Source: Isotricha intestinalis
Taxonomy: Eukaryota; Ciliophora; Litostomatea; Vestibuliferida; Isotrichidae
Length of the DNA stretch: 64,000 nucleotides
Direction: 5' to 3'
Assembly: GCA_023807065.1 (NCBI GenBank)
Contig: JAJJLU010000348.1
Location: forward strand, 1 to 64,000
Shown: positions 1-22,766 of the stretch, piece by piece
How the letters are laid out: every line of letters starts with the position of its first letter
How positions within the stretch are numbered: position 1 is the stretch's first letter
Made by a program: the position numbers and the translations under genes
The notes under the pieces: generated by a model
Told to the model about the DNA's origin: nothing
What the model saw: the letters and a program-made list of their open reading frames with translations, nothing else
Databases searched by the model: none

Positions 1-34
1 CCCAATCCCCAATCCCCAATCCCCAATCCCCAAT
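1..34. repeat. Telomere, CCCCAAT heptamer repeat
   Basis: The window starts with a partial unit (cccaat) and four perfect CCCCAAT units, then changes abruptly to very AT-rich DNA. C-rich repeats at a 5' end are the arrangement expected of a left telomere. The G-strand repeat is ATTGGGG (equivalently TTGGGGA), which is one base longer than the TTGGGG of Tetrahymena. Only about 4.8 units are present, either because the natural tract is short or because the assembly is truncated here. Confidence 0.93.
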
Positions 35-20035: not shown

Positions 20036-22766
20036 ATGAAAACAATATGGGAAAAATATAAAAAAATTCAATTACTTCATTCAAATTTATTTATTAATCT
20101 ATATAAAGCAAAAAATATTTCAACTGGAGACTATGTTTTAATAAAAGAAATTCAAAAATCAAAAATAAATCAATCGAATTTTTTAAAAATAATTGAAAAT
20201 ATGAAGAAATTAAAATCAGAAAACATAGTAAAATTCATTGATTTTCATGAAAATAAAAATTCATATTATTTAATAATAGAATTATGCTTTATGTCTCTTG
20301 AAGAATATTTAGAAATTAAGAAAGAACCTTTATCAATTGAAGAAATAAGAGATATATTATTAGAAATAAATAAAGGTTTAAAAGAAATAAGTGATAATAA
20401 ATTAATTCATCAAAATCTTAAACTTTCTAATATTTTATTATCATTAAACAAAAATAAAATAAATCAAATAGATTTTAAAATATCAGATTTTGGGTTAAAT
20501 AAAATATACGAAGAAAGTAATTCATTTCAAAAGAACATAGGTAGAAAATCGAATACAATTTCACCTGAAATTTTGAGTGGAGAGAAAATAAATATAAAAA
20601 GTGATATATGGAGTTTAGGAGTTATTATCTATTATATGTTATTTAAAGAATATCCTTTTATAGAAGAAATTGAATCCAATCAAAAATTCAAAGAAATAAA
20701 AGAAAAAAATTTATATGATTTAATCAAAAAAATGTTAATTATAAATACAAAAGAAAGAATTTCTTGGGAAGAATATTTTGACCATTCTTTTTTTAATTAT
20801 AGTTCTGATAGAATAAATTTACCTTCATTTGAAATACAATGTGAAAAACATTCACAAGAATTAATTTCTTATTGTTCTTCTTGTAAATCTAATATATGTG
20901 AAAAATGTTTAAATAATCACTCTGGCCATAAAGTTCTTTTTTTTAAAGATATTGGATTAACAGAAAAAGAAATGAATGAAGTTGATGATTTATTAAAAAA
21001 AATTGATAATAATATTGAATCTTTTATTAAGATAAAAAAAATGATTGAAAATATTAAATCAATCGACGAAAATTCTTCAATCTACGAAAATGATAATGAT
21101 AATAATTATAAATATTATTTTATAGATTGCTTAAAGGTAATTAAAGAAAAAATGAAAATTAATGAAATTTCAATCCCAAAGGTTTTTGAATGGGAATTAA
21201 GGTTATTAATAATAATATTGTAGAGTTAAATTCTTTAATTTTAATTTAGTGCGTAATTATCATTAATTATTATAGAAAGTAAATAAATTACATAATTGTA
21301 ATAAGAAAGTTAGAAAATAAATTAAATTAGTGTGTAAATGATTAAATAATATAGTATGTAAATATATATAAAAGTAGTATGTAATTTATATTATTTTAAA
21401 ATAAAATAGCAAGTAAAACTATTAAATTAATAAAAGTTTGTAATATTTTAAAATAATATATCAAGTGGGTAATAAAATATTATTAATATTAAGAAGGTAA
21501 TAAATAAAATAATAACTAAAAGGGAGTATATAACATATAAAAAGAAGAAAGTAAAATAAAAAAAGAAAAATTAGTATGTAAAATAATCAATAATAAAAGA
21601 AAGTAAAAGCAAATAACAATTAGCCAGTAAAAAAAGAGAAATAATATTTCTATTTATTTATAGATAGTAAGAAAATATTATTTAGTTTATATAGAATGTA
21701 TTAAAAATTGATTATATTGATTATAGGATGTTAAAAACAATATTAATTTATTAAAGGGTGTCAAATATAATTAATTTTTATTAGGGAGTTAAAAAAATAT
21801 TTTTAATAATAGATTGAAAGATAATATTCTTTAATTTTAGTGGGTAATCAATGATCATTAATTGATATTAGATGGTAATTTATATTATATTCCTAAATAA
21901 TTAAAGGGAATAAGATAATATTATAATTAATTCTAGGAAATATGATATTTATTAATTAATGATAGGGAGAAAGAAATTATTTTTAATAATTAAAGTGGAT
22001 AAGATAATATTATTAATTAATGATAGTATGTAAGATTAAGTTATTAGTTATAGAAAGTATAATTAAATATATAATAACTTTAGGGTGTAAAATAACATTA
22101 GGATTAATTATAGTATGTATGATAATTTAATTTTTATTATAGGGAGTAAGATGATTTAATCATATTACCAAAGGGAGTCAGATAATATTATAAATAATTA
22201 AAGTATGTAAGAATATATATAAATATAGTATGTAATTTAATATTTATAAAGAATAGAAAGTAAAACAATTTTATGAATTAAAGAGAGTAAATAATTATTA
22301 ACTGATTTTATAGAATTTAAGCTGATTTTATTAATGAATTATAGGGAGTAATATAATATTAAAAAAATATAGATGATTGTTATTTATTAAATTTTATTTT
22401 TTTAGTGTGTATATTAATTTCATTATTAAAGAATGTATTAAATTATTAATATTAAGGATGTATTCTTCATATTTTATTCCAGAAAGTTTAATATTTATAA
22501 TTTAAATTAGGAAGTAATATTAATAATATCTTTTTTAGCCTGTATTTAATCCAAATAATTTATTAGTGTGTATTTATTATATTTAAATTAGCCCATTGTA
22601 AAATATATATAATTTAGTGTGTAATTATAATAATAATAGCAAGAGAGTAAATAAAAATTATTTAAAATATAGGCTGTTAATAACTTAATAATAATTATTA
22701 TTTTAGTGTGTAACAAATTAATTTATATAAAAGGAAAATTTTAAAGAATCAAATTCCTTTGAATAA
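20036..22766 (+). CDS. Pseudokinase + B-box protein with a tail built of about 52 micro-exons
   Basis: Exon 1 (20036-21201) encodes a protein-kinase fold at residues 1-255. K37 is kept in VLIKE and D151 in the DFG motif, but the catalytic loop is HQNLK (residues 125-129) instead of HRDLK, and the Gly-rich loop is absent, so it is probably a pseudokinase. Residues 269-298 are a perfect B-box (C269, H272, C280, C283, C288, C291, H295, H298), followed by a coiled coil. Reading straight on hits TAG at 21221-21223, but that TAG is the 3' end of a GT-AG intron. The inferred gene continues through a 1-nt exon (A, 21224) and 52 exons of 3 or 6 nt. It ends with a normal last exon at 22734-22766 (ENFKESNSFE, then TAA), for a total of 453 residues. 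The tail is Gly/Tyr/Lys/Cys-rich with C390-x2-C393 and C437-x2-C440-x2-C443. The fallback is a 395-residue protein ending at 21223. Confidence 0.7.
21202..22733 (+). repeat. Array of about 54 tiny GT-AG introns separated by 3-nt exons
   Basis: I parsed this 1532-bp stretch by hand into 54 intron-like units of 20-37 nt (sum 1369 nt, mean 25.4). They are separated by one 1-nt, fifty 3-nt and two 6-nt segments (163 nt). In 48 units the 5' end is GT (usually GTAA, GTAT or GTTA). All units end in AG (usually TAG or AAG). Six have altered donors: GA at 21816 and 21969, AT at 21910, 21940 and 21999, TT at 22317. The triplets are about 31% G+C, far above the units around them. None of the 54 codons is a stop in the phase set by the upstream exon, while the other two phases hit TAA by about codon 14-17. 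Example triplets are 21250-21252 (TGC), 21466-21468 (TGG), 21785-21787 (GGA) and 22707-22709 (TGT). A few acceptor choices (for example near 21374/21377 and 21544/21547) are ambiguous. Confidence 0.85.

Follow-up and report, generated by a model that had tools for sequence, protein, structure and literature searches.

Evidence for an array of one-codon exons between tiny introns in the tail of a ciliate protein kinase gene

Downstream of a protein kinase domain, the window (the whole stretch of 64,000 nucleotides analysed here, which is the first 64 kb of the 84-kb contig C148 in a genome of 57.3 Mb) contains a sequence that we consider, with high confidence, to be the 3' part of a real macronuclear protein-coding gene, cut into exons of 1, 3 and 6 nt by tiny spliceosomal introns. 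That this and similar loci are coding micro-exon arrays at the DNA level is close to certain, and that the units between the codons are removed by splicing is very likely, judging by analogy and by the pattern of selection. The features of the gene are as follows.

20036..21201, forward strand: exon 1, encoding a protein kinase domain and a B-box (from the open reading frame and Pfam), ending ...W-E-L-(AG) with its last codon split after 2 nt
21202..21223, forward strand: intron 1, 22 nt, GT...AG, read from the sequence
21224..21224, forward strand: 1-nt exon A, completing the codon AGA (Arg) and setting phase 0 for the array, placed by the AG-A-GT junction
21225..21249, forward strand: intron 2, 25 nt, read from the sequence
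21250..22709, forward strand: 52 micro-exons (50 of 3 nt and 2 of 6 nt) between 51 introns of 20-37 nt, from the parse and its statistics
21250..21626, forward strand: conserved N-terminal block of the domain, reading CKKCYYQFWKGKYKP, with a single codon in each exon and no non-GT donor
21627..22405, forward strand: variable loop, with all six non-GT donors of the window array, from the parse
22406..22709, forward strand: conserved C-terminal block CNDKEPC(PI)CRAC, with PI in one 6-nt exon, from the parse
22710..22733, forward strand: last intron, 24 nt
22734..22766, forward strand: last exon, 33 nt, encoding ENFKESNSFE and the stop TAA

The region 21202-22733 divides into 54 intron-like units of 20-37 nt that add up to 1369 nt, and the 163 nt left over consist of one 1-nt, fifty 3-nt and two 6-nt pieces, so that all the counts given in the first-pass annotation were reproduced. 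Introns 1, 2 and the last were placed by hand and the other 51 come from an automatic parse. The description of the units as GT...AG stands for the donors of 45 of the 51 inner introns, the other 6 starting with AT (3), GA (2) or TT (1) in the 3-nt parse, whereas the AG ends are imposed by the parser. The parser also permits exons of 3, 6, 9 or 12 nt only, and hence the independent test is a count of spacings. When the ends are taken strictly, 21202-22733 contains 44 instances of AG-NNN-GT, whereas 500 shuffles of that stretch average 4.95 and never exceed 12. Among the other AG-to-GT spacings from 0 to 15, only k = 1 is clearly raised (10 versus 4.94), and k = 6 is level (5 versus 4.92). The longest chain in the array has 20 units, whereas no shuffle has more than 4 and, outside the array, neither strand of the window has more than 2. 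Read on in frame from the kinase/B-box exon upstream, the joined pieces stay open as far as the stop at 22766, and the predicted spliced product matches Pkinase (E = 1.2e-41) and zf-B_box (E = 1.4e-8) in Pfam.

The window array is one of many. A three-unit pattern has 661 matches in the 57-Mb genome and 5 in the reversed control, and the matches listed, which go no further than C538 of the 2153 contigs, include about 18 arrays spread over 17 contigs; extrapolation from these gives a guess of about 70-110 arrays for the genome. Arrays in C275, C396, C515, C538, C1925 and C1364 sit at contig ends, so the assembly may break inside arrays and their number may be underestimated. The exon-1 protein has at least 114 matches in its own genome. 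Of the 20 loci listed among these, 12 were scanned, and 9 of them (L001-L006, L008, L011, L017) have an array, with none in L010, L015 and L018. Twenty further regions all have an array, but they were picked for the array or for its gene.

Ten genes form a first family. They have the junction, the 1-nt exon and the encoded domain in common, but their introns cannot be aligned. Exon 1 ends in W-(E/G)-L-(R/K), the junction AG-A-GT is found by eye in 10 of 10, and a TGY triplet comes next, which in C1946 is flanked by TG and GG. The parser chose the 1-nt exon in 6 of the 10 and took other paths in C741, C1042, C1946 and C231. The kinase exon belongs to 6 of the 10 genes, the other four (C453, C231, C281 and C18) being absent among the exon-1 matches listed. 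In C281, the exon-1 frame opens at MSDKWELK and micro-exons would make up most of the gene, unless there is another exon upstream. Patterns for Q-F-W and C-P-x-C have 14 and 10 genome matches, respectively, and 0 in reversed controls. Over 18 parsed arrays (10 from the first family, 4 from the second family described below, and 4 others), 884 of 907 exons are 3 nt long, 20 are 6 nt and 3 are 9 nt, and in 19 arrays the single canonical introns, 643 in all, range from 20 to 39 nt with a median of 26.

The first-pass annotation had the joined triplets open solely in the phase dictated by the upstream exon, and this holds across the ten genes as well as in a second family that has a phase of its own. 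In the predicted phase, the first family has 0 stops in 465 joined codons, compared with 7/411 and 67/411 in the other phases. The second family has five genes in which the first exon ends in TG, so that the triplets straddle codons. Read in that predicted phase, it has 0 stops in 176 joined codons; its triplets read as codons give 21 stops in 193, TAA and TGA included, and the third phase gives 8/176. Both families together have no stop in 641 codons in the phase set upstream. Forced units of C741 and C231 contain TAA, and with those parses the count is 2 stops in 593 codons. In ten further arrays whose upstream phase is not known, phase 0 alone is open in C538, C275, C515 and C1616, offset 1 alone in C174, C72 and C1606, offsets 0 and 1 in C398, and all of them in C545 with its 7 triplets. 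C519, the last of the ten, has stops in all three phases. Of three second-family exons submitted to Pfam, the one belonging to the second array of C2 (L054) has a Trypsin_2 match above the cut-off (E = 1.3e-6), the one in C439 (L051) has Trypsin_2 below the cut-off (E = 0.00013), and the one in C94 has no Pfam match. Trypsin_2-like proteins ending in an array of the other phase lie at 1740-2456 of L051 and at 4424-5344 of L054 on the reverse strand.

When joined, the window tail spells a zinc-ribbon-like CxxCxYQFWKG...CPxC. An alignment of 8 of the 10 joined tails has W-E-L, C, G, P, C, D, CP, C and K invariant. In terms of the zinc-ribbon knuckles CxxC/CPxC, columns C8, C69, P70 and C72 are invariant in the 8 tails and the first Cys is found in 7 of 8. 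Among the nine genes parsed as far as CPxC, the P and the residue after it share one 6-nt exon in 6 and occupy two triplets in C453, C231 and C18, and K-E comes after the motif in 7. Pfam scores two joined tails as zinc-ribbon-like below the cut-off, the best being C281 (Zn_ribbon_8, E = 0.0012, 19.3 bits versus 34.4). It matches no zinc ribbon to the joined product of the window itself (E up to 1) or to the joined C439 tail (E up to 0.05).

Nine equivalent codons at the conserved motif can be compared in all ten genes, where amino acid identity is 61% and base identity at codon positions 1, 2 and 3 is 0.746, 0.852 and 0.709; 41 of the 199 differing codon pairs are synonymous. The eight introns between those codons are no more alike at equivalent sites than at non-equivalent ones (interior 0.593 versus 0.588), and those at equivalent sites differ in length. 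The conserved triplets and diverged introns that had been proposed as a check on homologous loci are thus seen in related genes of the same genome. As far as DNA can establish it, the triplets are coding, the upstream exon sets their phase, the exon boundaries are conserved from one related gene to another, and the intron sequence drifts freely.

Searches for an uninterrupted copy of the domain were negative both in the organism's own genome, with a 43-aa composite query run without a positive control, and in the protein collection, where 60 candidates were compared at E up to 0.1. Searched with residues 250-453 of the joined window protein, 247 candidates yield 4 proteins, 395-443 aa long, that cover 66-69% of the query, none of them shown to cover the tail. 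With no homologous protein for the domain found outside, there is no intron-free copy to confirm the reading. Codon usage does not discriminate, as the correlation with the window ORFs is 0.73 for the first-family triplets and 0.72 for their introns taken as codons.

The alternative that fares best is that the array is a 3' UTR or one large spliced-out block, with translation either stopping at the TAG at 21221 or passing from exon 1 directly into the last exon. If intron 1 is unspliced, an in-frame TAG at 21221-21223 closes the exon-1 ORF at 21223, and the nearest protein of the collection, P0001 (99% identity over the covered part), has the 395 aa of that unspliced ORF; splicing from one donor to the last acceptor is also a possible in-frame outcome. 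An untranslated array would, however, offer no reason for the conservation of the triplets, the invariant cysteines, or the dependence on phase, and we regard this alternative as very unlikely.

From its telomere repeat, standard code and base composition, we place the window on a macronuclear chromosome of a ciliate of litostome, trichostome type. Two features outside the kinase gene are needed here.

1..34, forward strand: telomere (CCCCAAT)n, the contig start being a macronuclear chromosome end; a repeat type found in PMC11316547, PMC10978948 and PMC6211341
56544-56582, reverse strand: GT-AG intron in MetAP2, 39 nt if the first acceptor is used, one of three in-frame choices (39, 51 and 54 nt)

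The CCCCAAT-type telomere repeat is known in Entodinium caudatum (PMC6211341) and, in the available text of the respective reports, in Muniziella cunhai (PMC11316547) and Balantidium ctenopharyngodoni (PMC10978948). The far end of contig C148 (L071) has no telomere repeat. Long ORFs of the window stay open under the standard code, G+C is 15-24%, many of the ORFs besides MetAP2 are long and uninterrupted, and an Rfam search of the window gave no match. The intron of 39 nt claimed for MetAP2 was confirmed in outline, with a GT-AG stretch of that length joining the two frames, the downstream one being Peptidase_M24; a motif scan did not locate the Sec61-gamma gene for which a 28-nt intron had been claimed.

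Ciliates excise many short DNA segments, and the array units resemble short IESs in size, which counts for an explanation of the units as germline DNA eliminated in macronuclear development. But the window contig starts with a macronuclear telomere, which makes DNA elimination unlikely, and five other contigs with unit chains (C18, C72, C398, C439 and C545) have telomere repeats at one end, so that the arrays, far from being absent from macronuclear DNA, are found on telomere-bearing contigs. Furthermore, the units end GT...AG as does the MetAP2 intron. We give elimination an even smaller chance than the untranslated block.

Several arrays contain introns that are nearly copies of each other. 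Neighboring introns agree in 0.86-0.91 of aligned columns in C439, C1616, C275, C538, C826 and C453, where the AT-rich baseline in other arrays is 0.74-0.82, except for C515 (0.86). In cores selected so that every intron is at least 0.8 identical to the central one, the mean agreement is 0.86-0.94 at intron sites and near random (0.26-0.41) at triplet sites; wobble sites of the cores are raised in C439, C275 and C538 (0.64, 0.62 and 0.52) and not in C1616 or C826. One 28-nt intron has 155 genome copies with at most 2 mismatches, and 0 in the reversed control; its one copy in the window, with 2 mismatches, lies inside the variable loop at 21999-22026. C826 has a segmental duplication of 12 codon-plus-intron units (L069, about 1800-2600), between the copies of which two introns differ as GT versus AT. 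Eleven identical units, chosen for their identity, have 0/33 triplet bases and 12/305 intron bases changed, and the 13-unit stretch that takes in two mismatched flanking units has 2/39 and 16/361. Between neighboring units of C826, 49/72 triplet bases and 83/661 intron bases differ. Judged by these triplet and intron changes, tandem duplication of a single codon with its intron, followed by mutation, fits badly. Instead, the introns seem to have been copied or converted without their codons, with strong early diversifying selection as a possible alternative for the homogenised arrays.

Near-identical tandem copies of this kind, together with decay of donors in the loop, could suggest a non-coding degenerate minisatellite with an accidental 3-nt spacer or a decayed pseudogene array. 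We hold that to be a very slim prospect, lower again than elimination, in view of the 641 stop-free codons in two families in the phase set upstream, and of triplets that are diverse in sequence and yet kept by position across genes. Returning to coding arrays with spliced introns, a more speculative proposal, to which we give somewhat less than an even chance, is a system of genes split codon by codon. Introns would spread between neighboring codon boundaries without the codons, each would be a unit of splicing and at the same time a handle for recombination, and the loop could gain or lose whole codons in frame. The zinc-ribbon-like tail could then have arisen inside the arrays and not from an older continuous domain. 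Loops of homogenised arrays, for instance those of L070 (C1616) and L051 (C439), include some that are long, hydrophobic and membrane-like and others that are charged.

GT donors account for 807 of 889 units in the 18 parsed arrays, and some of the 82 non-GT donors are forced by the parser. The non-GT donors number 0/139 in the N block, 2/96 in the C block and 68/331 in the loop (Fisher p = 6e-12 for N block versus loop), a count that puts the end of C741, beyond the examined sequence, into the loop, and in which the 0/139 omits GA at the first intron of C741 and GG after the first-Cys triplet in C1946, both immediately before the units counted, and non-GT donors right after the conserved proline in C826, C231 and C18. 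In C1946, the acceptor before the first-Cys triplet is also non-canonical (TG), and that codon may be lost. After the conserved proline, either the residue is lost or such donors can work. The overall pattern is what we infer selection on GT-dependent removal to produce, if loss of loop codons is harmless. Positions +3 and +4 of the donor are A-rich (0.89 and 0.79), and T comes before the final AG in 0.72. Among units of length 3n, 252/276 give a stop when read in phase 0, so a retained unit would either shift the frame or, in those cases, bring a stop.

The machinery is probably the ordinary spliceosome. Rfam finds U6 twice and U1 and U2 once each in the genome, all above the cut-off. We suppose that the major spliceosome would remove the introns singly, by intron definition. 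The simplest order would be 5' to 3', in which each round adds one codon to the upstream exon and the next donor would always have a normal 5' exon. Because all exons of one array have the same phase, any donor used with a later acceptor should drop whole codons only, so the frame would survive a splicing error or a lost donor, which would account for dead-looking donors being retained chiefly in the variable loop. That ribosomes or some RNA process skip the units in place of the spliceosome has the least chance of all, for although translational bypassing occurs in some yeast mitochondria and the non-GT starts are in its favor, GT is far better kept in the conserved blocks than in the loop, the units have the donor and acceptor preferences just described, and the snRNAs share a genome with a GT-AG intron.

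Micro-exon genes of Schistosoma have many small symmetric exons, the skipping of which keeps the frame, and those exons are larger than one codon; here an exon holds a codon or less, and the introns measure about 26 nt. Single-nucleotide exons have been reported in Arabidopsis APC11 (PMC4674806) and Fusarium CYP621A (PMC12940212), and as in those genes the 1-nt exon lies between two introns and is required for the reading frame. The available text of those reports describes one such exon, whereas here the 1-nt exon opens a run of about 50 3-nt exons and recurs in ten genes. Drosophila homothorax also has a 3-nt exon, which the accessible part of the report presents as a single alternatively spliced micro-exon (PMC7392893). 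Among ciliates, Stentor coeruleus is described, in what is available of the account, with introns of 15-16 nt (PMC9505925), which like the ones here are AU-rich, very short, and have splice sites of the major spliceosome, but the canonical single introns here measure 20-39 nt, and the minimal part is the exons. Near-identical introns at many genome sites, such as the 28-nt family with its 155 copies, resemble introners as the available text presents them (PMC9860276), but differ in being only 28 nt long and clustered at successive codon boundaries.

Arrays of consecutive 3-nt exons were found by title in none of the matches listed from the open-access literature, which leaves most subscription papers and bioRxiv preprints outside. 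The closest known cases are isolated 1-nt and 3-nt exons, and we rate the array architecture as categorically new, beyond any exon structure that we found described. If transcripts confirm it, the spliceosome handles about 50 successive introns 3 nt apart. This would be a new lower limit of exon spacing, and would make intron definition and the order of splicing directly testable. Standard gene prediction and RNA alignment will probably overlook such genes, so whole coding tails may lack annotation. The arrays are also a natural experiment on intron multiplication, as the introns of one array can be about 90% alike and the codons between them unrelated.

Viral contigs were considered as hidden relatives and set aside. 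They have 13 matches to the QFW pattern, of which 12 are without a chain of at least five units and the other, in L072 (a viral contig of 56% GC), has a chain of five; all were taken as chance, and two further scans gave no relative. Within the kinase/B-box family itself, L019 and L016 are other members with a single open frame into the C-terminal region, which resembles MORN repeats in L019 and BspA-like leucine-rich repeats in L016.
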